DNA of 64,000 nucleotides from Candidatus Nitrososphaera gargensis Ga9.2 (GTDB lineage Archaea > Thermoproteota > Nitrososphaeria > Nitrososphaerales > Nitrososphaeraceae). Both the position numbers and the translations under genes were made by a program. The stretch is from NCBI RefSeq assembly GCF_000303155.1, contig NC_018719.1, positions 372,001 through 436,000 on the forward strand, read 5' to 3'. Shown here one piece after another: positions 24,593 through 40,264 of this stretch. The notes under the pieces are model-generated. The model was not told the DNA's origin, searched no databases, and saw only the letters and a program-made list of their open reading frames with translations. Each line of letters opens with the position of its first letter. Within the stretch, counting starts at the first letter, position 1.

Positions 24593-25135
24593 ATGTGGAG
24601 AGACTTCGATTTAGGATTCGGAACAACAAGAAGGCTGTTTGAAGACATTGACAGGGAATTCAGAGATGCTGAGGAGATGCTGAACAGGATGTTCAGAACC
24701 GTACGTGAGATGAACCCATCTGACATTGCTGGTACATTTCCCTACTACTATGGCTACCAGATAACCATAGGTCCAGATGGCAAGCCCCATGTAAGAGAGT
24801 TTGGCAATGTCAGACCATCAGCTAGGGGACTGGTTGAGCAGAGCGGCGTCAGAGAACCATTGGTCGACACGAAGCTGGAGGAAAAAGACAACACGCTGAC
24901 CATAACCGCAGAGATGCCCGGTGTCACAAAGCAGGACATCAAGGTAAAAGTGTCACCAGAATATGTCTCAATACATGCTGAGAAAGGGGACAAGAAGTAC
25001 CACACCGACATACCTGTTGATGTCGAACTGGACGACAAGTCAGCCAAAGCAACCTACTCGAACGGCATTCTGGAGCTGAAGATAAAGCTGAAGGCTCCTC
25101 CAAAGCCAAAGGAGACAGAGGTTCAGGTTGAGTAA
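24593..25135 (+). CDS. Small heat-shock protein, Hsp20 family
   Basis: 180 aa. An alpha-crystallin domain covers about residues 88-168 (LVDTKLEEKDNTLTITAEMP, YVSIHAEKGDKKYHTDIP, KATYSNGILELKIK). The N-terminal arm is helical and the C-terminus ends with a V-x-V-type tail (EVQVE) used in oligomer assembly. It prevents aggregation of unfolding proteins. Dyad site I and GAGGTGA precede it, and CDC48 follows 56 nt later. Confidence 0.95.
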   Translation: MWRDFDLGFGTTRRLFEDIDREFRDAEEMLNRMFRTVREMNPSDIAGTFPYYYGYQITIGPDGKPHVREFGNVRPSARGLVEQSGVREPLVDTKLEEKDNTLTITAEMPGVTKQDIKVKVSPEYVSIHAEKGDKKYHTDIPVDVELDDKSAKATYSNGILELKIKLKAPPKPKETEVQVE

Positions 25136-25191
25136 AAGAAGGGAAGATTGTACATCCCTTAAATTTTTGTTGTGAGGTGAAAAATTGAGAA

Positions 25192-27369
25192 ATGAAAAAT
25201 GATGCTAAAGTCACATTAAAAGTAGCAGAAACAAACCCCAAGTTCGTTGGAAGGGGCATGGCACTCATAGATCCAAGAGTTATGGAAGAGATGGGTCTCT
25301 CAACAGGCGATGTTATAGAGATTACTGGCAAAAAGAAAAGCTATGTGCTTCTCTGGTCCAGCCAGAGTGAAGATTATGGCAAAGGCTTGATCAGAATTGA
25401 TGGTTATACCAGAAATAACATTGGCGTTGGGATTGACGATAGTGTCTCAATTCGAAAAGTATCTGTCAAAAAGGCAGAGCAAGTAGTCCTCGCCCCAACT
25501 GAGGAGCTTAACATTGTCGGGCTTGAAGAGTACCTGCCAGAACTACTTGAAGGACGTGTAGTTGCGAAGGGCGACGTAATTCCACTCAATATCATGGGCA
25601 GGAGAATCGGCTTTGCTGTTACAAACACTTCGCCATCTGATACTGCGTCGTTGATTGACAGCAATACCAACTTTGTCATTGGAGCAGTACCAAAAGCGGC
25701 GGCAAAGGGCGTTCCACGAGTGTCCTATGAAGATATTGGCGGTCTTAGAAATGAAGTGCAGAAGGTAAGGGAGATGATAGAACTTCCGTTGCGCCATCCA
25801 GAGATCTTTGAGCGCATTGGGATCGAAGCTCCAAAAGGCGTACTCTTGCACGGTCCTCCGGGAACAGGCAAAACATTGCTTGCAAAGGCAGTAGCCAATG
25901 AGACCAATGCCGGCTTTTACTCTATTGGCGGTCCTGAAATTATGAGCAAGTTCTACGGCGAAAGCGAAGAGAGGCTCAGGCAAATATTCAAGGAAGCAGA
26001 AGAAAATGCGCCTTCGATAATATTCATCGACGAAATTGACTCGATAGCGCCAAAGAGAGAAGAAGTAAGCGGTGATGTCGAAAAGAGAGTGGTGTCGCAG
26101 CTCCTAACTTTGATGGATGGCATAAAGTCAAGGGGCAAGCTAGTTGTCATTGGCGCGACGAACAGACCAAATGCCATTGATCCTGCTCTAAGAAGACCTG
26201 GCAGATTTGATAGAGAAATAGAGATCGGCATACCGGACGAGCAAGGGCGGCTCGAGATCCTGCAAATCCATACACGAGGAATGCCATTGACTGAAGATGT
26301 TGACTTGGCGGCAATAGCCCGAGTAACGCACGGTTTTGTCGGAGCTGACCTTGAGGCATTGAGCAAAGAGGCGGCCATGCGCTCTCTGCGAAGAATACTG
26401 CCAGAAATCAATCTAGAGGAGGCTCGGATACCTGCTGAAATATTGAACAAGATTAAAGTAACAAGGCAGGACTTCGAAGAAGCGTTAAGAGATGTTCAGC
26501 CTTCTGCAATGCGGGAAGTCTTGGTCCAAAAGCCCAATGTAAAATGGGAAGACATTGGCGGTCTCGGACAGGTCAAGGAAGAGCTCGCAGAAGCAATAGA
26601 ATGGCCGCTCAAGCATGCAGACTTGTTCACAGAGGCAGACGTCAGGCCCCCAAAAGGAATACTGCTGTATGGCCCGCCGGGAACTGGCAAGACAATGATA
26701 GCCAAGGCTGTCGCGACAACATCGGAGGCTAATTTCATCAGCATAAAAGGGCCTGAGCTGATAAGCAAATGGGTAGGCGAGTCAGAAAAAGGTGTAAGGG
26801 AGGTCTTTAGAAAGGCAAGGCAGGCAGCGCCATGCGTCGTGTTCTTTGACGAACTTGATGCCATTGCCCCAAGAAGAGGAGGCTCTGAAGGCGACTCGCA
26901 TGTGACAGAGCGCGTCATCAGTCAGATGCTGACAGAGATGGATGGCTTGGAGGATCTGAAAGGTGTAGTAGTAATTGGCGCGACGAATAGGCCAGACATC
27001 ATCGACGAGGCATTGCTCCGTCCCGGGAGGTTCGACAGGATACTTGAAGTTCCAATTCCAGATAAAGAAACAAGGAAGCAGATATTCCAAGTGCATACAA
27101 GAAGGAAGCCGCTCGATTCTGATGTTAACCTAGACAAACTGGTTGAAATGACAGAAGGCATGACAGGAGCGGACATTGCAAGCATAGTCAATGCAGCAGC
27201 CATGTCTGCAATAAAGGAGCATGTCAGCAGCAAAAATGGTGGTAACAAGAAGCTAAGGATCTCGATGAAACACTTTGAATCTGCAATGGACAAAATAAAG
27301 ACAGGAAGTTCAGCAGCCAGAACGAGGGGAAGCTTTCAGAACTTCCCCGGGAGCAGGTCGCTAACATAA
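25192..27369 (+). CDS. CDC48/VAT-type AAA+ unfoldase
   Basis: 725 aa. An N-terminal double-psi barrel plus alpha/beta subdomain (about residues 1-180) is followed by D1 and D2 AAA modules, each with Walker A GPPGTGKT (about 221 and 494), Walker B ([16 protein letters not shown]) and arginine fingers ([18 protein letters not shown]). It is a full-length hexameric unfoldase. The C-terminus (FPGSRSLT) lacks the HbYX motif that docks on proteasomes, so its protease partner may differ; the Lon-like gene downstream is one candidate. Confidence 0.96.
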
Positions 27370-27370
27370 T

Positions 27371-27616
27371 ATGACATGCAAAGGGCTGTGCGTCAGATAC
27401 AAGGCACCAAAGCCGCCGGCTCATGTAGGCGGGCGATATGGGATAGGACAGAAGAGATGCCAAGTATGCAGCATGTTCATCGAGTGGAACGACCTTTGGT
27501 GCCCCTGCTGCCATTTCAGATTGAGGATAAAACCGCGTAATCCAAAATCCAAGAAAAGAATATTGCTTGCTGTTGCAGCTAACAGTAAGACAAGAAGACT
27601 AGCTAACACAAGATGA
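27371..27616 (+). CDS. Zinc-ribbon microprotein in the CDC48 unit
   Basis: 81 aa. RCQVCSMFIEWNDLWCPCCH is a four-cysteine ribbon followed by basic residues (RLRIKPRNPKSKKR). ATG 27371 is 1 nt after the CDC48 stop. It resembles the ribbon at 43304 (C-x2-C, x12-14, CPCC, then R-x-KP). It probably binds nucleic acid or a partner protein. Confidence 0.6.
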   Translation: MTCKGLCVRYKAPKPPAHVGGRYGIGQKRCQVCSMFIEWNDLWCPCCHFRLRIKPRNPKSKKRILLAVAANSKTRRLANTR

Positions 27617-27628
27617 TGAGCAAATTCA

Positions 27629-28591
27629 ATGAGTGCAAAAATTACAGTTATACTGGGTATTCTTATTCTTGCCTCTGCAGCCGGCAATGTTTACCTTTAC
27701 CAAAAAACTACATCCCTTGAGAACACAATTTCTCAGCTCCAAGCGACAAATGAGGAACTCAAGGATGATCTTGCTAATGCCCAGAATAATAATAACCAAA
27801 GTTCTTCTTCAATAGGATCGTCATCAACAATTACCGGAAATTTACCATCTTTCTCAGGCTCGCTTCAACAGGGCAATAACAAGCTAGCAAATATGACAAG
27901 CCAGTCAATCACGGCAGTTGCCGTCAAGGCAGTACCTGTATCTGATGGATTCTTTCAGACTGTCCGGTATCAGGGAACCGTAATGGACATAACTGTCGAT
28001 ATCAGAGACGGAAGAGGTCTTGTTCTAGTGAATACAGAGATACCGACAGGCGTAGACTTTCAAACATCTGCGAGAACTGCAGTCAAGGTAGCTCAATCAA
28101 TGACAGGTGCAGATTTGAGTAGAAAAGATGTCATCTTTTCAATCAAGGCAAAAGGCGAGAATAGCACTGCAAGCGACCTTCAAGCTGTGGACGGTCCAAG
28201 CGCCGGCGCCGCAATGACTGTATTGCTTGCTGCAGAGCTTGGCAATAATGCAGAATTAAAGCAGGATGTGCTCATGACTGGAACGATAAACCCGGACGGA
28301 ACAGTAGGCCTGGTTGGCGGTGTGCCTGAAAAAGCTGTTGCAGCCGGCCAATACGGTGCCAAGATTTTTCTAGTTCCTTCAGGTCAGGCAGTTTATAACG
28401 AGCAGACTTGTGAAAAGAGACAGGAAGGGCCTTTTATCTATCAAACCTGCAGAACCGAGCAAAAATCGCTTTCAGAGTATACAGAGAAAAACTACGGCAT
28501 GAAGGTTATTGAAGTGAAGAATATCAAGGACGCATTGGCATACTTCCAATCTTGGATAAACCTGCCTAACACAATAAAATTACGACTGTAA
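27629..28591 (+). CDS. Membrane-anchored Lon-type (S16) protease without ATPase
   Basis: 320 aa. One N-terminal membrane segment (about residues 5-23), a coiled coil (27-50), an Asn/Ser-rich linker, then a Lon catalytic domain with the Ser191 motif DGPSAGAAM and Lys235 in GVPEKAVAAG. No AAA module is present, unlike archaeal LonB. A late C-terminal insertion has two cysteines (QTCEKRQEGPFIYQTC). The protease domain faces away from the N-terminus side by an undetermined topology. It is the last gene of the Hsp20-CDC48 unit. Confidence 0.88.
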   Translation: MSAKITVILGILILASAAGNVYLYQKTTSLENTISQLQATNEELKDDLANAQNNNNQSSSSIGSSSTITGNLPSFSGSLQQGNNKLANMTSQSITAVAVKAVPVSDGFFQTVRYQGTVMDITVDIRDGRGLVLVNTEIPTGVDFQTSARTAVKVAQSMTGADLSRKDVIFSIKAKGENSTASDLQAVDGPSAGAAMTVLLAAELGNNAELKQDVLMTGTINPDGTVGLVGGVPEKAVAAGQYGAKIFLVPSGQAVYNEQTCEKRQEGPFIYQTCRTEQKSLSEYTEKNYGMKVIEVKNIKDALAYFQSWINLPNTIKLRL

Positions 28592-29777: not shown

Positions 29778-30296
29778 TTACTTTTTTAGGTCTGGATAAA
29801 TGTCTTCTCCAATATATGACCAAACAACTTCCCCATTCATAGCATCAATAAAGTAGTAAGCAGGAGCACTTTTTCCTTCTCCAGAATAGCTTCCATCAAG
29901 AAAATACACTAATCTTCCTGCAACTGATTTAGCTATGTCCATATTCTGAATATTAAAGCAAGCCAGAGAGGGAGTACAAGAACTAGATATTGTATACGAA
30001 GTTCCATTGATAAAGTACAGCAAATTCTTCTCTTGGTCATAGTAAATCAGTGGAAGAGGTCTATTGACATTAGCTGGGTCATGAGAATCTCTGAGATAGA
30101 GGTATACTGTCACATTATCGCCAACTCTATTTTTGATGTCTGCTTTCATCATGTCTATAACTTGAACTTCCATCAATGCCGGCACTGTCGGTATGGAAGA
30201 CGATGTTTTTCCAAATACCAAAATCAGTAACAACACAAATCCAATTCCAATTGCAAGACCAGCAGCTACAGACACTGCTAAACTATCTGACATCAT
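29778..30296 (-). CDS. Membrane-anchored exported protein
   Basis: 172 aa. The N-terminal anchor (SVAAGLAIGIGFVLLLILVF) resembles that of 28792. The outer domain has a Cys pair (CTPSLACF) and a repeated YF/FLDG pattern like PepSY-type folds, which is only suggestive. The three minus-strand genes may form one unit. Confidence 0.55.
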   Translation of the reverse strand: MMSDSLAVSVAAGLAIGIGFVLLLILVFGKTSSSIPTVPALMEVQVIDMMKADIKNRVGDNVTVYLYLRDSHDPANVNRPLPLIYYDQEKNLLYFINGTSYTISSSCTPSLACFNIQNMDIAKSVAGRLVYFLDGSYSGEGKSAPAYYFIDAMNGEVVWSYIGEDIYPDLKK

Positions 30297-30393
30297 TTTG
30301 ATTGTTTTGATTCATGCTTTTGAGTCTTTTCTGACTTTTGAGGAATGTAAGTAGTTCTTTTTGTTTTAATTAGAAAAGTAGCAATTCGACTCT

Positions 30394-30984
30394 TTGTCAT
30401 TAAACCAAGGATGTCTAGCCGAGATCAGCTTTCAAGATTACAGTCTCAGTGCTTTATGGGACGCTCGCGATGGCGATATCATTCTCAAGAACTCCCAAAG
30501 GCGCTCGTATGCTGAATCATTCGACCAAAAGCTACTGCGTGTCTATAATGACCAAACTGTCGACTTCAAAGAGGAGCTAAAGGCCGAGCCTTTAGAAGTC
30601 GTCTACAAGGAAGACCTAGTTGTCAATCCTGGTCTTCAAAGGATAGCACAGCTCATTGTTGGCGAATCCACAACTTCTTTTACCCATATGGCGAGCGGCA
30701 CTGGCACAACAGGGGAAACAACTGATGATTCAGTTTTAGCTGCTGAAAATGCCCGCGTTTCACTGTCAACTTCCGGCTACAGAGTGAGCCAAGGCATTTA
30801 TGTCAAAATGGGCGGCTTCTTTCCCAAGTCGATAGCGACAGCCAATGTCTGAGAGTCTGGGGCCTTTGACGGGCCTAGTGGCGGCGTCATGCTTTATCAT
30901 ACGCTCTACGATGACGTTATCGGTCACACGCAGAACGTGACAGTGTATACAATCACACAGGTTATTGCAGCGACCTCGCTATGA
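30394..30984 (+). pseudogene. Virus-like structural protein broken by in-frame TGA
   Basis: The first 152 residues (to the TGA at 30850-30852) are followed without frame change by another 43 codons reading ESGAFDGPSGGVMLYHTLYD and VTVYTITQV, ending at 30984. That continuation is the typical end of tail- or capsid-fibre proteins (E-x-G-x-F-x-x-x-S-GG-x-ML). I infer a single 196-residue gene with one nonsense codon. The N-terminus is also uncertain: TTG 30394 is used, while ATG 30411 opens another frame. Confidence 0.55.
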
Positions 30985-31939
30985 GCTCCCACTTCCGCAA
31001 CCTCAGAAGATATGCCGACACGCGGCCATAGTCAAGAACCTGGCTGAAAAGCTGGCTGAATTCCAAGCGTCTGAAATTATCGATGCCGATATGATCCTTG
31101 GCAGGATCGGCCGGATTGACACTGCCAAGCTGATCTGGGAAAACCACGAAGAGCATTTTCTGAACAATTCCGGCCAATTCCAAGTCACCGAGCCGGACGG
31201 AACCAACCTGTATCTCTGGTACACGATGGACGAAGCAAGCGATACTCCAAACGTCATGACGGATCACTCCGGCGGCGGGCGTCACGGCACAGTCCAGCTT
31301 GGCTCTGGTGTCAAACTCGAAAATAAAATCGTGGCCAACTACACTGCCGGCAAGCGCCTGTCCAAGTCGTTTTACTGCACCGGCAACGGCACCGAAGTCA
31401 TTAGGCGGGCGCATGACTCTGACCTTGTCGTAAACCAGAACCAGTCGTTCTCGCTCTGGCTTTACCCAACGGATCTCAGCCTAGACGGCGGCACGTCCCG
31501 GCGCTGCGTCCACAAATTTGAGGATGCCAACAACGGTTTTCAGGTTACATACGATGACATGGCCCGCATCCAGTATGTTGTGGAGAAGGCAGGGGTCGGC
31601 TACTCGGCAAGATGCGCGACTGGCGCACTGCTCTTGAACGCCTGGAACCTTATCGTGTGCTTGTGGCAGAACTCCACTAACACTCCAACGATTGTTGTCA
31701 ACAATGTCGCTTATTCAAACGTCGGCGGCGTGCCGGGCTTCAATTCAGGGACCACAGACCTTGTAATAGGCCGCCAAGGAAACAACACTACTTCGGGCCG
31801 GACAAAGGGATACATCGACGACTTTAGGTACTGGCAGAGCAAGGTTTTGTCGACCACAGAATATGGCAACCTTTGGGCCAACAAGCTGTCAATAGTTGCT
31901 TTACCCGGGCGAGTTGGACTGTGTGACGTTGCAGCATGA
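30981..31939 (+). pseudogene. LamG-like virion or cell-surface protein, frameshifted near start
   Basis: ATG 30981 overlaps the upstream stop (ATGA) and reads MSSHFRNLRRYADTRP before a TAG at 31029. The body continues in another frame as AAIVKNLAEKLAEF and a ConA/LamG-like domain (LYLWYTMDEAS, DHSGGGRHG, YIDDFRYWQ) up to 31939. A shift near 31025 joins them. An open alternative uses TTG 30965. Together with the TGA in the gene before, this indicates decay. A binding role at a virus tail or surface is inferred. Confidence 0.55.
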
Positions 31940-32397
31940 CACCTGAGCCAAAGTTTGAGAACATTGACAGGAGCGCAAATGTCCAGTCTCAAGGGGAAGG
32001 CACCGTCTCTGTCGTCACGCCAAGAGAGCGGCCAATTATCATTGGCGATAGGAAAAACTATAGGTATATTCGAAAAAAGCGCGCTAGAATTCTAAAGGAA
32101 ATTGCAGACATCAAGGCTGACTACGCAGGCAGGCCGCCAGACGCGCCTGTAATGCTGACCATAGGCCAAGTTCCTCTCAAGCTTGCTCTGAAGATAAAGG
32201 AATACCAGCTCAAGGTCTTGGGAATGTGTACCGGCCACGGTCCAGGCACATTGAAGCGACTGCTTGACATCCAGCAGAGCCTGCTTTGTGACAACTGCCG
32301 CAAAAGTTCTCTATACGGCGGCGACTTGCAATGCACGGCTGACTTGTGGCCGTTTCTGGCTGTCAACATCCTGATGGGGGCGCTGGCTAAAGACTAA
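31936..32397 (+). CDS. Virus-like cassette protein of unknown function
   Basis: 153 aa, starts inside the upstream stop (ATGA), so it is translation-coupled. A basic middle region (YRYIRKKRARILKEIADIK) and a late Cys pair (LLCDNCRK) plus another Cys are visible. Not recognised. Confidence 0.55.
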   Translation: MTPEPKFENIDRSANVQSQGEGTVSVVTPRERPIIIGDRKNYRYIRKKRARILKEIADIKADYAGRPPDAPVMLTIGQVPLKLALKIKEYQLKVLGMCTGHGPGTLKRLLDIQQSLLCDNCRKSSLYGGDLQCTADLWPFLAVNILMGALAKD

Positions 32398-33098
32398 TGG
32401 GTACAGCCGGCCTTGCTTGGGATGTCGGTGACTATATCAGCGCCGCTCGGATGAACCAAAAGGACGAATTGGTAGGGACAGGCGCAGAGATAGCTGGCAT
32501 TTCTCCGACTTATCCGGGACAACAAGCATTTTGCACTGCAACAGGTTCAGGATTCACAGTAGATACGCTTTACCAGCGAAATGCAGCCAACACTGCTTGG
32601 AACGCTGTCGGCGCTCTGTCAGGCGCTGTAAACGCCAATTTAGTAAAATTTTCAACGCCAACATCAGCTGACTTTACCATACCGGGTGCCGGGACGATAG
32701 CCGTTTCTTCTGGTGCGTCGCCGGACAATATGCGCGACAACAACACCGGTACGTCTTGGCTCTCAAACAACGAGGCAAACCCATGGGCCAGAATCGACAC
32801 AGGGGCGACTCGCCTGCTCGGTGCCGTCCGGATCTATTGGGGCGGCACATCAGCCGAGACGCCGAACTCCTTCAAGATCCAAGTGTCGGACGATGCTGTC
32901 ACCTGGGCTGATGTACTGAGCAGGACTGCCGAGCCAGCTTTGGGTGCCTATACAACCTACGAGTTCAACGTTGTCTACAAACGGTATGTCAGAGTGATAG
33001 CTCAGGAAACGCTGGCAATGAGGATAAACGAGTTCCATTACTATACACGAGTCACCGAGGACGCAATAGCAAATCATGGGCATGGGTTGTTGTCGTAA
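32397..33098 (+). CDS. Discoidin-like (F5/8 type C) fibre protein
   Basis: 233 aa, ATG overlaps the previous stop (TAATG). The N-terminal about 60 residues (WDVGDYISAARMNQKDELVG) are shared with the next gene. The C-terminal about 115 residues follow the F5/8C jelly-roll pattern (DNNTGTSWLS, NPWARIDTG, LGAVRIYWGG, FKIQVSDD, KRYVRVIAQE). It ends AIANHGHGLLS. I infer a receptor-binding tail fibre. Confidence 0.65.
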   Translation: MGTAGLAWDVGDYISAARMNQKDELVGTGAEIAGISPTYPGQQAFCTATGSGFTVDTLYQRNAANTAWNAVGALSGAVNANLVKFSTPTSADFTIPGAGTIAVSSGASPDNMRDNNTGTSWLSNNEANPWARIDTGATRLLGAVRIYWGGTSAETPNSFKIQVSDDAVTWADVLSRTAEPALGAYTTYEFNVVYKRYVRVIAQETLAMRINEFHYYTRVTEDAIANHGHGLLS

Positions 33099-34276
33099 TG
33101 GGCCAATCAGGTTTGCAGTGGGACCCGGCTGACTATGTAAGCGTTGACAGGCTCAACCAAAAAGACATCTTTACCGGGACTGCAACACAGATCGACGCAA
33201 TCAAAACCACGTACGCCGGCATGCGCGTCTACTGCACTCAGGCTGGCGGCATCAACAACTTGGAGGCTGATGTCCTCTATATCCGCAATTCGCAGAACAC
33301 AGCATGGATAAAAATCGCAAGAATGAACCAAGAAGCCAACCCAAAGCAGGTGACCTTTTCTTCCCCTGATTCTTTGGACTGGACTGATCCAGTCTCTGTG
33401 ACGGTTTCTTCAGGGGGCTCGGAAACTGTCGTTTGCAACCCAAACGCGCCTGACAACTATTATTCGATGTCGGCCAACTACAACCAGCGCGAGGCAGAGC
33501 GGATAACCGATACGTCGCTTCGGAACAAGGCGCTGGTTTCGGTCAAATGGTATCTGGCAAAAGGCGGCAGCCCGACTGGAAATGTCGAATGCAGGATTAG
33601 AAAAGTCTCTGACGATTCAATAGTTGCGACGGCCACAAACCCTATAGCTGCATCTTCTCTTTCTGAATCATCCTACACGCGTCACACTTTCAATTTCCCA
33701 GCAAACACGCTGACTCCAAATGAAGATTGCCGTATAGCAGTCGAATATCCATCTGGCGACGCTTCCAATTACATCAAAGTTGGAGTCCACACAGGGTCTG
33801 GTAATACCTATGCCGGCGGCCACCGTGAAGGCTACTCTGGCGCTTGGAACATAACAGACACCTCGCATGACTTTAACATCGAAATAATCTTTGGCTCAGG
33901 CGCTAATATCAAGGATAATAACACATCGACAAAGTGGACATCATTGAATGAGGCTAATCCATGGGCTTATGTCGAGGTTGCCTCTACAAGCAAGCCAACA
34001 GGTGCGATCAGGGTTTTCTGGGGCAATTCTAACGAAACCCCGACCAACTACAAGGTCCAGCACTCCAATAACGCAAGCTCTTGGACTGACCTGCTGACAA
34101 GGAACGTCAAGCCGCCATCAAACCAATGGACGACGTACGAGTTCAACATCGTCGACTGCCGCTATGTCAGGGTCCTGGCCCAAGAAACCTTGGCAATGTC
34201 AATCTATGAAGTCGATATTTACAAACAGGAAGCTGCCCAAGCTTTGGCAGACCATAGCCATGCCCTGCTAACCTAA
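33098..34276 (+). CDS. Larger discoidin-like fibre paralog
   Basis: 392 aa, ATG overlaps the previous stop (TAATG). It shares the N-terminus of 32397 (WDPADYVSVDRLNQKDIFTG) and its F5/8C end (DNNTSTKWTSLN, GAIRVFWGN, CRYVRVLAQETLAMS), but has an extra about 150-residue beta-rich domain between. It ends ALADHSHALLT, like AIANHGHGLLS. A tandem paralog of a receptor-binding protein is the best reading. Confidence 0.65.
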   Translation: MGQSGLQWDPADYVSVDRLNQKDIFTGTATQIDAIKTTYAGMRVYCTQAGGINNLEADVLYIRNSQNTAWIKIARMNQEANPKQVTFSSPDSLDWTDPVSVTVSSGGSETVVCNPNAPDNYYSMSANYNQREAERITDTSLRNKALVSVKWYLAKGGSPTGNVECRIRKVSDDSIVATATNPIAASSLSESSYTRHTFNFPANTLTPNEDCRIAVEYPSGDASNYIKVGVHTGSGNTYAGGHREGYSGAWNITDTSHDFNIEIIFGSGANIKDNNTSTKWTSLNEANPWAYVEVASTSKPTGAIRVFWGNSNETPTNYKVQHSNNASSWTDLLTRNVKPPSNQWTTYEFNIVDCRYVRVLAQETLAMSIYEVDIYKQEAAQALADHSHALLT

Positions 34277-34338
34277 TCAGAGAAGACGGTCAAAAGCTAA
34301 TGCCATTTTTATTGTACCTTTTCGTGACATCCGGCTAG

Positions 34339-34671
34339 TTGCCTAAAAAAGAGTTCTTTGTCGAAGGCTCGAAGGACTTTATGAAAGTGTACGAGTCGTT
34401 GCCCCGCACAAGTCAGCTGAAGAAGGATATCGACAACGCCATTTCAGAGCTAAAGAAGGATCCTCTGAAAGGCGAAAGAATACAACAGCAACTATGGCCA
34501 AAAGAATATGTCAAAAAGTATGGCATTAACAACCTGTTTAGATATCGCCTCGGTGGAGGCTACAGGCTCACGTACACTATTGTTGGCAGGCCAAACGGAA
34601 CAACCTCGGTATTACTTGACGCTCTAACTCACAAAGAGTATGACAAATTATTTGGTTATAGTACCAGTTAG
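34339..34671 (+). CDS. RelE-superfamily toxin-like protein
   Basis: 110 aa, TTG start. The layout (KVYESLPRTSQLKKDIDNAI, LKKDPLKGERI, FRYRLGGGYRLTYTI, LLDALTHKEYDKLFG) is that of RelE/ParE mRNA-cleaving toxins, with basic R residues in the central strands. No antitoxin frame lies directly upstream or downstream, so it is an orphan here. Confidence 0.7.
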   Translation: MPKKEFFVEGSKDFMKVYESLPRTSQLKKDIDNAISELKKDPLKGERIQQQLWPKEYVKKYGINNLFRYRLGGGYRLTYTIVGRPNGTTSVLLDALTHKEYDKLFGYSTS

Positions 34672-35061
34672 CTAGAGAAGCCTGGTTGACTCTTCAAGCA
34701 GCTTTTCCAGTTTCGGGTTGTCTGCAAATACCCAGATAATCGCACCATCTTTGTTGTCTATCATTATCTTGTTGCTTGCTTCTAGATAATTCAGCACCTT
34801 CTCTAGAGTCTGGTATTGCATGCTCTTTGGCAGGCTTCTCCAGAGTTTGTACTTGGATGGATACTCTTTTGCTTCCTTTATGGCCGCCTCAACCATCTGG
34901 ATGGTAGGCAATGTCGGTTCATGATAGCCAGCGCTCCTTCCTCCTCTCTTCGTTGTCCTACCGGTCCCCAAGCCCCTTCTTCTTCCAGAAAAGGGACCGC
35001 TACCACTCCTTGATACAGCTGGCGTCGTCATGTCCAACATCTTCATTGTTGTTATTGTCAT
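34672..35061 (-). CDS. Winged-helix-like thaumarchaeal protein
   Basis: 129 aa. A Gly/Arg-rich, probably disordered N-terminus (SGRRRGLGTGRTTKRGGRS) leads to a conserved-looking C-terminal helix-wing (YKLWRSLPKSMQYQTLEKVL, NYLEASNKIMIDNKDGAIIW). I recognise this style from thaumarchaeal genomes; it probably binds DNA. It is convergent with the RelE gene and divergent from the CDC48-N protein, with a small palindrome (GTGTA-ata-TACAC, 35102-35114) between. Confidence 0.6.
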   Translation of the reverse strand: MTITTMKMLDMTTPAVSRSGSGPFSGRRRGLGTGRTTKRGGRSAGYHEPTLPTIQMVEAAIKEAKEYPSKYKLWRSLPKSMQYQTLEKVLNYLEASNKIMIDNKDGAIIWVFADNPKLEKLLEESTRLL

Positions 35062-35170
35062 ACTTCTTTAGCAGTAAAACTATTTAAACTTATACATTGT
35101 TGTGTAATATACACTTGTATAATATCACAACCTTGACAAATAGGTTATGCTAGCCTTTTAAGAAGTCGTT

Positions 35171-35737
35171 TTGGTTCAAGGGAACAGAAACCTTAAGTCT
35201 AGGCAATTTTCTCCGAAGCTGATATTGAGCGAGAACAGGATATCTCGTAGAGTCGTCGAGTCCTATGGAAGAAACAAGGAGCAGAAGTTGGCTTTTCTTG
35301 AAGATTCTGACATCCAGCTACTTGGTTTAAACCAGCAACAGCAGGACTGCCTCGTGATAACCGGCAAGCGCAAGGCCTCTGCTTGGGCGTACTCGATGCG
35401 CTACAGTAACAACTCAAGCCAAAATGGAATTGGACTGGATGCTGCAATGCGAAATATTGCCGATGTTTCAATTGGAGATACGGTAGTCATTGAAAAAGTT
35501 ACGCCGCTTGCCGGAGAGCGAGTAATTCTAAAGCCAGTAGAGGAGATAATACCAGGGATTTCGGCCAGAGTCATGGAGTATGTACCGTTTGCCATCAAAG
35601 ATAATCCGCTGGCAGTTGGAGAGCGAATCTGGTATTCCTTTGATGGAACTACGTTTGTGTTTGATGTCGCAGACGTTCAGCCGAAAAATGCCAGTGCCAT
35701 AGTCGTTTCAAAGAATACTAAATTTGCAGTAGGGTAG
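35171..35737 (+). CDS. Stand-alone CDC48/VAT N-domain-like protein
   Basis: 188 aa, TTG start. From residue about 45 it follows the CDC48 N-domain: LLGLNQQQQDCLVITGKRKA, SIGDTVVIEKVTPLAGERVI, then the second subdomain (EYVPFAIKDNPLAVGERIWY and a final SKNTKFAVG matching DSNTNFVIG of the CDC48 at 25192). No AAA module follows. Known CDC48 N-domains bind adaptors and substrates; a free copy could act as adaptor or competitor, which is inference. Confidence 0.7.
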   Translation: MVQGNRNLKSRQFSPKLILSENRISRRVVESYGRNKEQKLAFLEDSDIQLLGLNQQQQDCLVITGKRKASAWAYSMRYSNNSSQNGIGLDAAMRNIADVSIGDTVVIEKVTPLAGERVILKPVEEIIPGISARVMEYVPFAIKDNPLAVGERIWYSFDGTTFVFDVADVQPKNASAIVVSKNTKFAVG

Positions 35738-35767
35738 TCGCAGCAGAGCCTTCCAAATCTTGAAAGA

Positions 35768-36745
35768 TTATTGCGCTGCGGGAAGAAGACGGTTATTAAC
35801 GACTGCAAAAAGCAACTGCTTTAGCTTTGTGTTCAGATGGACCTCCTTTTTGGCTAAAAGCGCGTCTAAATCCTTGAGTCTTAGAGTTGGCCTTCCAATC
35901 TCTCCTGCATACTTTACCCCCTCGCTGATGAGGCTCTCAAATAGCTCTAGTTTGTGAACGAACGCCACTTTGGTCAACTCTTTACTTGCAAGGGCTTCTG
36001 CAGAATCTATCCTCGAGCGTATTTCATCTGGATATCTGTGAAAGTCACCGCGATCTAATCCCTTTCTGCTCCAAAATCCTCTGATCATCGAAGGAAAGTC
36101 GTAATTCCCTGCGAACGCAAGTTTCTCCTTTGGGTATTCGTTTTTGACAAAGCTTACTATTTCATCCGCTATGCCGGCATCGCTATTTTGATTCAGATAA
36201 TCAAGGACCTTTTGCGGCACAAGGCTAGAGTTGTCTCTTGTCCAGGACGTTATGCTCTTCAGCTCGCTCTGAAAATGGACAACATCGTTCATGTTTTGAA
36301 ATGGCAATAGGGCCGATACCGAGTCCAGCTCGACATTAAGAAGGTAGCCCTCTCTGTCCTTTTCAAGCTTTATTTTGATCTTCTTTGGGTGCAACTCCTG
36401 CTTTGGACCGACTATCTCCTGTTCTATCTCGTCAATCATTGCAAATACCTGATCCTTGCTAAACTTTAGAGCATACACAATCTGCATGTCTTTTGACTCT
36501 ATGTCTATACTATAGTTCCATGAAGAATGCCTTCTGAGCGCAAAGTAGCCATAATTTTCTAGCCGCAGTCTCTTGATAGCTTCGGATGACTCGTAGGTGG
36601 TCACTTCGTCCTTTTCTTCTCCCCAGCTTTCTGATTCTTCCCTTGCAGCATTGCGGTTGTGAATAGCAGCCCATCTTTCGCCGTCAGACAAGCTTCCCCA
36701 GTCCCCTACGAATTGAGGCCTACCGCCCCTTGTTATCCACGGCAT
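35768..36745 (-). CDS. Hypothetical protein
   Basis: 325 aa, not recognised. It is a soluble, charged, mainly helical protein with a central beta region (KIKIKLEKDREGYLLNVELD) and a helical C-terminus. It converges on the CDC48-N gene with a 30-nt gap. No motif supports a function. Confidence 0.6.
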   Translation of the reverse strand: MPWITRGGRPQFVGDWGSLSDGERWAAIHNRNAAREESESWGEEKDEVTTYESSEAIKRLRLENYGYFALRRHSSWNYSIDIESKDMQIVYALKFSKDQVFAMIDEIEQEIVGPKQELHPKKIKIKLEKDREGYLLNVELDSVSALLPFQNMNDVVHFQSELKSITSWTRDNSSLVPQKVLDYLNQNSDAGIADEIVSFVKNEYPKEKLAFAGNYDFPSMIRGFWSRKGLDRGDFHRYPDEIRSRIDSAEALASKELTKVAFVHKLELFESLISEGVKYAGEIGRPTLRLKDLDALLAKKEVHLNTKLKQLLFAVVNNRLLPAAQ

Positions 36746-37163
36746 TGAAAAGCCTAGCTTGAACTTGCTTTAATCCATTTCTGGATACATAATTTGTTCA
36801 TCCATTCATTTTGTTCTTGTTCGCGAAGGGCGTGCTAGACACGACTTCACCAGTAATTTCTGACAGAATTTTTAAATACAAAAGTGATGATTAAGTTGTA
36901 AACGAAAGAGCCGGACGGGCTGAAAAAACATGGAAACGGTTATGGCAATTTGCTTGCCTGACTAGGCGACGGGCCCTGAATACCTCGTTGAATTTGCTCA
37001 TATATGAAAGATTGCGTTCGGATAAAAGGCTAGAAACAGGAAGAATAGTTTTCAAATTGCAATTCTTGAAGTGTACGCATAATATATATTGCAAAACCAA
37101 AATCAGATTCTTGTCTCTTCTATAGTCCGATTGCTACTCAATCCATAACTAGCATAATTTCGG
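36746..37163. other. Intergenic region with candidate structured RNA
   Basis: About 420 nt without a gene. A TATA-like box (tttttaaatac, 36869-36879) is followed by a GC-rich island (about 36905-36980) with short hairpins AGCC-ggacg-GGCT, GGCAA-tttgc-TTGCC and GCCT-gact-AGGC, and a repeated GACGGGC/CTGA. A small RNA is possible but unproven. Confidence 0.25.
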
Positions 37164-37190
37164 TTCCCTCTCTTGGCTTATGAGAGGGAA
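37164..37190 (+). promoter_or_regulatory. Hairpin covering start codon
   Basis: TTCCCTCTC and GAGAGGGAA form a perfect 9-bp stem with a 9-nt loop. The ATG of the next gene (37180-37182) lies across the loop and 3' arm, and no purine-rich ribosome site is otherwise present. Confidence 0.45.
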
Positions 37191-37821
37191 ACAAAACAAC
37201 CTCAACCATATCCTCAACATCTGCCAAGATGGTAGCAGTACGAACATTCTCCAGCAATTGCAAAGCGTGACAGAACAAAAAGTGGACAAGGTGGACTACC
37301 AGCAACAAATAGAGCGGTGGAACAAGTACCAAGAGCTTTTAGATGAAATAGGCAAGAAATGTGGCCGGGACGTTGGCGTCAGGCTTGCAAGAAACGTCAA
37401 GCATAATTTCAACGTGTTTACTGACACATCCTCGGCTGGGCTTGCTGTAGTCGGCGCGGCTGCGTTGCTGACATTATGGGGCGCATTTTCGATCTATAGC
37501 ATCTATTACCTGGTTGGCAGTATTGCTGCTCTGAGTTTTGTAGGCTGGCAGGCATTTATCAGGTTACACCATCCATCGGTAATACACTTCAAATGCAGCC
37601 CTGCCTTGCATATCGACGAATTTGCGTACATGCGCCAGACGATAAGAGGGATACCGCCAGCAGAGCATGATCCGATAGTCAGGCTGCCTGTGCTAGAAAT
37701 GTCCATATCGCGAGCATGGCTGGCGCAGCAGGGCATGCTAAAGTTCATGGAAAGTCTGCGCGATATAAAATGGGAGAGAGCAGAGGAAAGGAGCCAGCAG
37801 GAACATCTACGGGAGGAATAA
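37180..37821 (+). CDS. Membrane protein with charged tails
   Basis: 213 aa. Two hydrophobic segments (about residues 86-103 and 106-122) lie between a polar, coiled-coil-prone N-terminus and a C-terminal region (SPALHIDEFAYMRQTIRGIP) ending in a charged helix (RDIKWERAEERSQQEH). The following zinc-finger gene is 5 nt away. Function unknown. Confidence 0.55.
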   Translation: MRGKQNNLNHILNICQDGSSTNILQQLQSVTEQKVDKVDYQQQIERWNKYQELLDEIGKKCGRDVGVRLARNVKHNFNVFTDTSSAGLAVVGAAALLTLWGAFSIYSIYYLVGSIAALSFVGWQAFIRLHHPSVIHFKCSPALHIDEFAYMRQTIRGIPPAEHDPIVRLPVLEMSISRAWLAQQGMLKFMESLRDIKWERAEERSQQEHLREE

Positions 37822-37826
37822 AAAGA

Positions 37827-38081
37827 ATGGCAATAGAAAGATGCGACAAATGCGGCAAGTCATTCATGAGCAAGTCAGAGGTTGAGCGCCACAAGATGTG
37901 GGAGCATCCAGTGCCAGTATCGCCTTTTGAAGAGCGGCCTGCTGCAGCCGTCAATAATAACAATGGCATTAATCCTGACGAAGTGCACAAGCTGACAAGC
38001 GACGTGATGGCTGGTACAAGAAGTAAAGGTTCCTCAGCAATTGGCAGCGGGCAAAGAAGAAGAGTCCCATTCAGAACCTAA
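37827..38081 (+). CDS. C2H2 zinc-finger protein with disordered tail
   Basis: 84 aa from ATG 37827, 5 nt after the membrane gene. CDKCGKSFMSKSEVERHKMWEH is, residue by residue, a canonical C-x2-C-x12-H-x4-H finger. The tail has an Asn run and basic residues (QRRRVPFRT). Similar in type to the microprotein at 17463. Probably cotranscribed with the membrane gene. Confidence 0.7.
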   Translation: MAIERCDKCGKSFMSKSEVERHKMWEHPVPVSPFEERPAAAVNNNNGINPDEVHKLTSDVMAGTRSKGSSAIGSGQRRRVPFRT

Positions 38082-38134
38082 AAGCAGAGAAGCATTAAAG
38101 ACCCGGTATATGATATAGTCTATGAGACATATAT

Positions 38135-38389
38135 CTGTCGCCCATAGACGATCAGTACAACAAACTCCGAAAGAATATTGGAAATGACTTTAGTAGCAGC
38201 CAGAAAGAGGAGAGGATAGCCGAGCTTTATTCATTCCATTGCGACAACTGTGGCTATCGAAATATCCATAATATCAGGGAGCTTGTTTGCGGGTGCGGCA
38301 AAGAGCTGGCAGGGACACTGGTGTACCGAAAAGTTGGAGATACAGTAATTTATGACGCTAGAGAAAAGAGAAAGGGCAGAAGAAGATGA
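38135..38389 (+). CDS. Zinc-ribbon ORF without a standard start codon
   Basis: An open frame of about 84 codons reads FHCDNCGYRN, then LVCGCGKEL and a basic tail (EKRKGRRR), which looks like a real zinc ribbon. From the upstream TGA there is no ATG, GTG or TTG before the domain; CTG 38135 or ATA 38144 are the only candidates. It overlaps the next gene by 38 nt. It may be mistranslated by me, use a rare start, or be decayed. Confidence 0.4.
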   Translation: MSPIDDQYNKLRKNIGNDFSSSQKEERIAELYSFHCDNCGYRNIHNIRELVCGCGKELAGTLVYRKVGDTVIYDAREKRKGRRR

Positions 38390-38666
38390 TGATAGCATGA
38401 TCTATAGGTGCCCGGACGGCCACATCAGTTTTGCAAAACAACTACAATATTGCGGGATGAAAGGATGCGGCAAGCCCATTGAAATTATTAGCGAGCAAGA
38501 TATCGAGTGGCTATATAAAATCAATCCAAGCGGGCTGGCAATGAATGAGAAAGACCTGAACAAGATACTGGAGGACAAGAACATGCCCAACGAGGTAAAG
38601 GAAGCGGTGAAACAAGTATTTCCAGAGCTGAAGGAAAAGAAGAAGAGGAGATTTTGGTTTGCATAA
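38352..38666 (+). CDS. Small zinc-ribbon-like protein
   Basis: 104 aa (ATG 38352; ATG 38397 is also possible and would avoid most of the overlap). YRCPDGHISF and YCGMKGCGKPIE give a Cys array, followed by a helical region (NKILEDKNMPNEVKEAVKQV) and a basic end. Not recognised. Confidence 0.55.
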   Translation: MTLEKRERAEEDDDSMIYRCPDGHISFAKQLQYCGMKGCGKPIEIISEQDIEWLYKINPSGLAMNEKDLNKILEDKNMPNEVKEAVKQVFPELKEKKKRRFWFA

Positions 38667-38817
38667 TTAATCAAGAACGAAACCATATTGGAAATGGTGA
38701 ACAAGCGAATATCTAGATGAATGCTTCGTCCACGATGGATAATGCTACTTATGAAGCTAGCAACGTAGCCAAAGGCTCAAAAGCATTATGGCATTTAGGT
38801 AAAAATACAAAAGAAGG

Positions 38818-39267
38818 ATGTGGAACTATCAGAAGCCTGTCCATAACATGGAAAGAGGAAGAAGCTCGCTTCTGATAAAGAGGCAGTTAGCGATTATAGG
38901 CAGCATTGCCGCAGTGGCAGCTGTTGCGCTTTTCATGACCATCTTCTCATTCGGTGCCGATGATTCTTTCTCAATAACAGAGATTCCATTCTTTTTCATG
39001 AACGGGCAAGAAATTACGGTAAGGGGAACGTTTGAAGAGTGTGCACCAACCAAGATGCTGCTGATATGCTATCCGGGATTCCGGTCAGACGATGGCAATT
39101 ATTTTGTACTCACAGACCACGATACTAAGGATTTAAGGAGCCTGATCAAACAGGGGCATTTTCAAGTTACTGGAAAATTTTCTCCAGAGATACCTGAGGA
39201 ATTTGCGGCAGCAGATGTGGCAGGAGTCATCTCAGTTAGCTCTATCACTCCAATTGATTCTGTTTAA
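38818..39267 (+). CDS. Membrane-anchored small exported protein
   Basis: 149 aa. One membrane segment at about residues 22-43 precedes an outer beta domain (ITVRGTFEECAPTKMLLICYP) with two cysteines and an OB-like strand pattern (GHFQVTGKFSPEI). Function unknown. Confidence 0.55.
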   Translation: MWNYQKPVHNMERGRSSLLIKRQLAIIGSIAAVAAVALFMTIFSFGADDSFSITEIPFFFMNGQEITVRGTFEECAPTKMLLICYPGFRSDDGNYFVLTDHDTKDLRSLIKQGHFQVTGKFSPEIPEEFAAADVAGVISVSSITPIDSV

Positions 39268-39444
39268 GACATAATACTGGACACAATCTTGGACGCATGA
39301 TCGTTCAGTATCGACATTCTTTGTGGTGCTCGCTTTTTTCGTAGTCAGAATTTTAGATATATAGAAGACGCAGCTTGGGACATCAAGACAAAGAAGCTAC
39401 AGGATATGATAGAATAAAGAAACATGCCGCGCAAAGAGTAGTGC

Positions 39445-39624
39445 ATGGGCGAGCAGAAAGACAAGACGCTGGAGCAGGTATCCGACGAAGACTATAAAGT
39501 GGCACCAACCAGTGCGGATGAAAGGCACCTGAACAAAAGGGATATGAAAAAACGGGTCACAGGCGAAAGCTACCCACTGCTCGAGGAAAAGGTGCAGCAA
39601 GAGCTAAGAGGGGGAGTAGAATAG
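39445..39624 (+). CDS. Charged microprotein
   Basis: 59 aa, absent from larger ORF sets. It is hydrophilic throughout (KDKTLEQVSDEDYKVAP, HLNKRDMKKRVTGESYPLL). No motif. Support is limited to an intact frame and typical composition. Confidence 0.35.
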   Translation: MGEQKDKTLEQVSDEDYKVAPTSADERHLNKRDMKKRVTGESYPLLEEKVQQELRGGVE

Positions 39625-39784
39625 CAAAGGCTCCAAGCATTGCTCATTGGCCATGCACAGAAATTACACTAAATTATATAATACGCTAAATTATTCACAT
39701 TTGCTCAAGAATAAACCAAGCTTCTTTCAAGCTACTGCATATATTTCCAAAAGTTATTTATTCTAGAAGCGCCTTTAACTAAAT

Positions 39785-40264
39785 GTGTACGCAAAACTAT
39801 GCAACATTGAAATTTTATCAAGCTACATCAAGGACGTTTCAGTTGGCGACATGCTGACGGTGCAGGCGCTCATCACAAACCCACTTGACTGGCAGCACTT
39901 TTACGAAAAGATACTGACAATAAAACGGGGCGACAAGACGGACTTTACGGTCGTCACGGGCGAAGGCGACAGACTGGTTGGCACCGGCGACATTGTCGAA
40001 GTGGACAAGTGGAGCAACAGCGGCCACTATGGGTTCAAGATCAAGATAGATGTCAAGCGCCAAAAGTCGCTTACCGATAGGAGGATAAGGGGGCCAGGCA
40101 GGACGGCAAAGCCGGCGGCTGAAAAGCCGCCGGCCGAGCCGGCGGAGGCGGAAGCGCCGCAATTCGCTCCGCTGGCAGCAGCCGCCACCACCTTGGTAAC
40201 GCCGCAGGATATTGCATCGTTTCGCGAAATGCTGAAAGGCTCGATCACGATGGACATGGCCTAA
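39785..40264 (+). CDS. Hypothetical protein with Ala/Pro linker
   Basis: 159 aa, GTG start. An N-terminal beta-type domain (VGDMLTVQALITNP, TDFTVVTGEGDRLVGTGDIV) is followed by a basic stretch, a Pro/Ala/Glu-rich linker and a short helix (PQDIASFREMLKGSI). Codon use matches the neighbouring core genes. Function unknown. Confidence 0.55.
   Translation: MYAKLCNIEILSSYIKDVSVGDMLTVQALITNPLDWQHFYEKILTIKRGDKTDFTVVTGEGDRLVGTGDIVEVDKWSNSGHYGFKIKIDVKRQKSLTDRRIRGPGRTAKPAAEKPPAEPAEAEAPQFAPLAAAATTLVTPQDIASFREMLKGSITMDMA

Follow-up and report, generated by a model that had tools for sequence, protein, structure and literature searches.

Is a CDC48 N-domain that stands apart from any AAA motor a working protein, and if so, does it belong to the host or to a virus? 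CDC48 is a general protein-unfolding engine in archaea and eukaryotes. Free-standing CDC48-type domains are already known from Ufd1, and to our knowledge archaeal CDC48 adaptors have hardly been described. The question is raised by an open reading frame, here called P0001, in a 64,000-nucleotide stretch of the ammonia-oxidising archaeon Candidatus Nitrososphaera gargensis Ga9.2 (positions 372001-436000 of the complete 2,833,868-base genome), which is referred to as the window. Its features are collected in Table 1.

Table 1. Features of P0001 and of its full-length comparison gene, in window coordinates.
Feature	Position	Strand	Details and basis
P0001, motor-less CDC48 N-domain protein	35171..35737	+	TTG start, 188 aa; Pfam, NCBIfam, codon use, AlphaFold model
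Alternative TTG start of P0001	35225..35737	+	170 aa; aligns with N-termini of CDC48 proteins (inference)
TATA-like CCTTTTAAG, candidate promoter if 35225 is the start	35154..35162	+	Sequence inspection only
Nn half, double-psi beta-barrel, CDC48_N PF02359	35249..35503	+	Residues 27-111; Pfam E 1.8e-9; fold model
Nc half, CDC48_2 PF02933	35573..35731	+	Residues 135-187; Pfam E 3e-4, just under cut-off; alignment
Full-length CDC48 paralogue, comparison gene of the first-pass annotation	25192..27369	+	28% identical to P0001 over the N-domain

Both halves of the N-domain can be recognized in P0001, the second with less certainty. In Pfam hmmscan, CDC48_N scores 38.1 bits against a curated cut-off of 35.1 (E 1.8e-9), while CDC48_2, lying C-terminal to it and nearly full length, scores 20.7 bits against a cut-off of 22.4 (E 3e-4); the latter assignment is backed by alignment and by the structure model. 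The NCBIfam model CDC48 (TIGR01243) also matches (E 5e-11), limited to its N-terminal positions 4-155. No AAA family matched the protein in the Pfam scan, and of the two AAA modules that mark a CDC48 ATPase none is found in the protein or downstream of it. Searches with the AAA parts of CDC48 (tblastn), run over 30000-40000 and around the other motor-less genes described below, turned up no trace of an AAA module (best E 0.34). P0001 terminates at the domain border, where the N-D1 linker would start.

These results bear out a first-pass annotation, made from the sequence letters, which had described P0001 as a CDC48-type N-domain lacking the AAA module and had aligned it by eye with the CDC48 encoded at 25192. 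BLASTP recovers that alignment (28% identity, 170 columns, E 2e-11) up to the matching ends, SKNTKFAVG at the C-terminus of the P0001 translation and DSNTNFVIG in the paralogue. One correction is needed: P0001 is closest not to this neighbour (45 bits) but to the canonical CDC48 (32% identity, 65 bits, E 1e-17), which lies 2 Mb away at genome position 2412417. Counterparts of the canonical protein are the top P0001 matches across the remaining 17 genomes of the genus.

The same annotation had proposed a profile and structure comparison with VAT-N and had named a different predicted fold as the outcome that would speak against it. The profile comparison gave the CDC48_N match, and the AlphaFold2 model (mean pLDDT 82, pTM 0.78), calculated from 42 sequences of CDC48 N-domain relatives that steer the model, has a VAT-N-like fold. 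It is kidney-shaped, with Nn and Nc arranged as in VAT-N or p97-N. In Foldseek, the top PDB match of the model is VAT-N (1cz4; E 1.2e-12, probability 1.00, TM 0.71), followed by p97 N-domains. The single-sequence control stays unfolded in silico (pLDDT 29), which is usual and uninformative about P0001.

P0001 is not a chance reading frame. The codon score of its own frame exceeds those of all 2000 first-order Markov sequences, and a stop-free frame has a probability of about 4e-5 in unconstrained saturated sequence; chance as the origin of the ORF is therefore excluded. The frame contains no stops, compared with about 10 expected in saturated neutral sequence, and its codon usage is better than that of the other five frames. 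An antisense reading of the region was rejected because the opposite strand is full of stops, and an Rfam scan of 22000-46000 returned zero RNA families. Of the alignment columns occupied by hydrophobic residues in 40 Nitrososphaeria CDC48s, 82% stay hydrophobic in P0001; at polar columns the figure is 13% (permutation p about 1e-5). The kept hydrophobic pattern and the lack of stops favour constraint on the predicted fold and are also compatible with a recent loss of function.

As to where translation begins, the true start could be TTG 35225 instead of TTG 35171, because residues 1-12 are disordered in the AlphaFold2 model and because the TATA-like CCTTTTAAG, which ends only 8 bases before TTG 35171, would place the start of transcription past that codon if it is used. 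Residues 19 onwards match up with the starts of CDC48 proteins in the alignment.

Within this fold, the sequence has diverged strongly. P0001 keeps 37 of the 108 near-invariant positions of canonical N-domains (34%), including the second GD box, several structural glycines and prolines and the Arg-Asn pair at residues 94-95. The 71 positions lost include the YPSDEG block, the first GD-box glycine and the greater part of both the RDVGRGxARID block and the GGRLTFQ strand. In a tree of N-domains its end branch measures 4.87 and has no supported neighbour; a placement by tree was rejected, the branches being too long for a common motor-less origin or the parent paralogue to be named. No orthologue was found at E <= 1e-22 among 400 Nitrososphaeria genomes or in a contig scan, so no cross-species selection test is possible, and for the same reason the gene could be recent or dispensable.

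P0001 is not the only protein of its kind. A census of CDC48_N in 23 genomes, to which its frequencies apply, was combined with inspection of the loci; a wider PF02359 census was swamped by full-length CDC48s. The genome of P0001 encodes a second motor-less protein (L083, 173 aa, 61.7 bits) that also ends after Nc, and for it, too, no motor-less orthologue was found. Others occur in G135 (L091, 283 aa; L090, 378 aa), G120 (L085, 255 aa), G072 (L086, 333 aa; L087, 204 aa) and G263 (L088, 267 aa), and a search of the genus added L039 (281 aa, G336) and L040 (278 aa, G216). All of these resemble P0001 in matching CDC48_N over the Pfam cut-off and in having no AAA module. The single-contig genomes G070, G093, G100, G132 and G089 contain full-length CDC48_N frames only in the census. 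The motor-less proteins aligned to P0001 are only 15-27% identical to it, and, unlike P0001, most of the other Nitrososphaeraceae examples bear C-terminal additions, of at least two kinds. One C-terminal region may be common to L086, L090 and L091, which are 24-27% identical overall. Another is shared by L039, L040 and L088, and its relatives also stand alone.

P0001 is best read as a host binding module that descends from CDC48, evolves fast and is specific to its lineage. We put at about an even chance the specific account that it is a free N-domain whose parent, a CDC48 paralogue, lost the D1/D2 AAA motor, and that the host retains it as a small protein for binding; the recurrence of the same class in its own genome (L083) and in related genomes speaks for this. 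Loss of D1/D2 would have left the Nn double-psi barrel and Nc as a free protein, which is expected to fold as a monomer and, alone, to be unable to enter the CDC48 ring. By analogy with the N-domains of CDC48, it could bind some of their clients or partners. It would then compete with the ring-attached N-domains, and fewer of those clients would be delivered to the ATPase; alternatively, if it also touches CDC48, it could hand clients over in the manner of the UT3 domain of Ufd1. The competitor or adaptor role that the first-pass annotation had proposed may thus reasonably be inferred from such analogies. The strong divergence from canonical N-domains suggests a binding surface tuned to a narrow target, and canonical partners may fail to bind P0001 because so few of the near-invariant positions (37/108) are kept.

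Two known systems help to place this account. The N-domains of VAT have been termed regulatory, with a role that is called unclear; when they are removed, the ATPase and unfoldase activities rise (PMC5423775). The N-domain of VAT or CDC48 (PDB 1cz4) and P0001 have both subdomains in the same order, the Nc half of P0001 being the less certain one, and are homologous in sequence, whereas P0001 has no D1/D2, stops before the N-D1 linker and keeps 34% of the near-invariant positions. In eukaryotes, Ufd1 carries a UT3 domain with the architecture of CDC48-N, which binds ubiquitin and forms part of a substrate-recruiting adaptor (PMC4192671); it resembles P0001 in being a CDC48-N-like domain with no ATPase attached (PMC4192671). 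Unlike Ufd1, P0001 is archaeal, has no C-terminal extension for a CDC48-binding motif of the SHP/BS1 kind and has no known link to ubiquitin. Its only match to a UFD1 profile in Pfam, UFD1_N2, scores 14.2 bits against a cut-off of 37 (E 0.045).

It is possible, and we suggest it tentatively, that the Nitrososphaeraceae keep motor-less N-domains as a recurrent, fast-turnover class of CDC48 adaptors or decoys, parallel to the UT3 domain of Ufd1, with P0001 as the minimal form. That the class consists of minimal proteins or of fusions to lineage-specific C-terminal domains is a part of this suggestion which we hold with the same reserve. An incomplete literature search found no papers on archaeal proteins that consist of a CDC48 N-domain without the motor. 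A natural set of such proteins would offer a direct means of finding what archaeal N-domains bind, and would illustrate one way in which the ATPase itself can give rise to adaptors such as Ufd1.

The main rival to a host binding module is a decaying CDC48 fragment: a duplicate of CDC48 would have lost its AAA part by deletion, and the N-terminal piece left behind would have a frame that is open by chance or translated without function. CDC48 copies do arise and vanish in this genome. One copy, near 2484239-2486166 (L008, G000:C1:2482855-2486193), is frameshifted within its N-domain, and its frame stops before the end of D2; it is a probable pseudogene. The genome also holds a frameshifted motor-less N-domain gene at 838315-838549 and a truncated relative of 119 aa at 2551491. 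The overall picture is one of CDC48-derived pieces that are born and lost, some of them being retained. The missing orthologue, the very long branch and the lack of synteny of the P0001 stretch in five relatives would also suit a remnant, but the hydrophobic pattern is intact at about 30% identity without a stop, codon use is coding-like, the frame ends precisely where the domain does and leaves no AAA debris behind it, and a second intact copy of the same size (L083) exists elsewhere in the genome. On balance we regard decay as rather unlikely.

Also unlikely, in our view, is that the N-domain has been reused outside CDC48 altogether, as an independent binding protein whose small double-psi barrel recognizes a lineage-specific ligand, possibly together with an island neighbour. 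Such a reuse would be in keeping with the loss of 71 of the 108 near-invariant positions, with the variable C-terminal additions of the relatives and with a convergent neighbour gene that is also narrowly distributed, yet no gene pairing is conserved, and the CDC48-N core and the domain pair of P0001 are still intact.

P0001 sits in a variable island, since five relatives lack, at the syntenic site, counterparts of the genes tested between 28792 and 39267. Five consecutive genes at 30394-34276 encode laminin-G and F5/8-type lectin domains, with one match to phrog_5417 (E 1.3e-11), and look like genes for tail or surface-binding parts; P0001 lies about 0.9 kb beyond this cassette. From this closeness the first-pass annotation had drawn the idea of a viral inhibitor of host CDC48. 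Such an inhibitor, borne by a virus or mobile element and arriving with the cassette, would account for the neighbouring lectin genes, the phrog_5417 match and the absence of the island at the syntenic place in five relatives, but it is very improbable, since CDC48-N is unmatched in phages, plasmids, IMG/VR scans and PHROGs, the other motor-less genes mostly adjoin ordinary chromosomal genes, and no tRNA lies within 28 kb of P0001.

The copies in archaeal viruses for which the first-pass annotation had advised a search did not appear. P0001, the canonical N-domain and another motor-less protein (L091) had no match in 50,697 phage genomes or in IMG/VR scans, the latter being pattern-seeded and showing mainly close relatives, so that distant viral copies may have escaped them, and P0001 had none in plasmids or PHROGs. 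Viral structural neighbours of the model at E below 0.001 are only UFD1-like and AAA proteins, mostly from eukaryotic giant viruses. UFD1-like proteins of the same fold in these viruses make the idea possible, yet they give no pointer to P0001. A viral origin was set aside as unsupported, as phages, plasmids, IMG/VR, PHROGs and the viral structure library were all without a relevant match. A published survey of integrated elements in Thaumarchaeota leaves CDC48 unmentioned (PMC6563490).

Several further observations concern the surroundings of P0001. At 34339-34671 lies a relative of ParE/RelE-like toxins (E about 1e-3, under the cut-offs), beside which an antitoxin partner is not obvious; it is followed by the convergent gene, which encodes a narrowly distributed 129-aa protein of unknown kind. 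A link to toxins or defence through the ParE-like neighbour was rejected, its Pfam matches being marginal only. The gene at 37716-38081 encodes a small protein that has one zinc finger of the C2H2 type (E 1.8e-4, under the cut-off). Farther away, 24593-28591 is an apparent operon in which CDC48 is accompanied by a small heat-shock protein, a protein of 81 aa resembling a zinc ribbon, and a probably membrane-anchored protein whose protease domain is of the Lon type (S16; Lon_C E 1e-9); a possible unfold-and-cleave unit may be envisaged here. None of the neighbours of P0001 is a conserved gene indicating a CDC48 function.

Across the motor-less loci, the one shared neighbour is a gene for a metallo-beta-lactamase fold, present near a motor-less CDC48_N gene in two species (L091:5445-7584 and L085:4281-7604; 50% identical) and not beside P0001. 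In L039:1947-2759, L040:2521-3318 and L088:3362-4111, the CDC48 Nn half is joined to a C-terminal domain that matches nothing in Pfam and bears the motif GSCIDFE..GWDFF..DLR/DLK; shorter stand-alone relatives of this domain lie at L087:6988-7317 and L040:645-986. In a 347-aa protein of G131 (L089:3708-4748), a DUF5643-like region (E 6e-6, under the cut-off) comes after a weak CDC48_N stretch, and the genome of the window (G000) has a protein of the same type cut down to 119 aa (L084:2800-3156). At L090:3068-5148 (minus strand), the 378-aa motor-less N-domain gene abuts a downstream gene on the same strand for a 324-aa protein of an unknown family, and the two likely form a two-gene operon.
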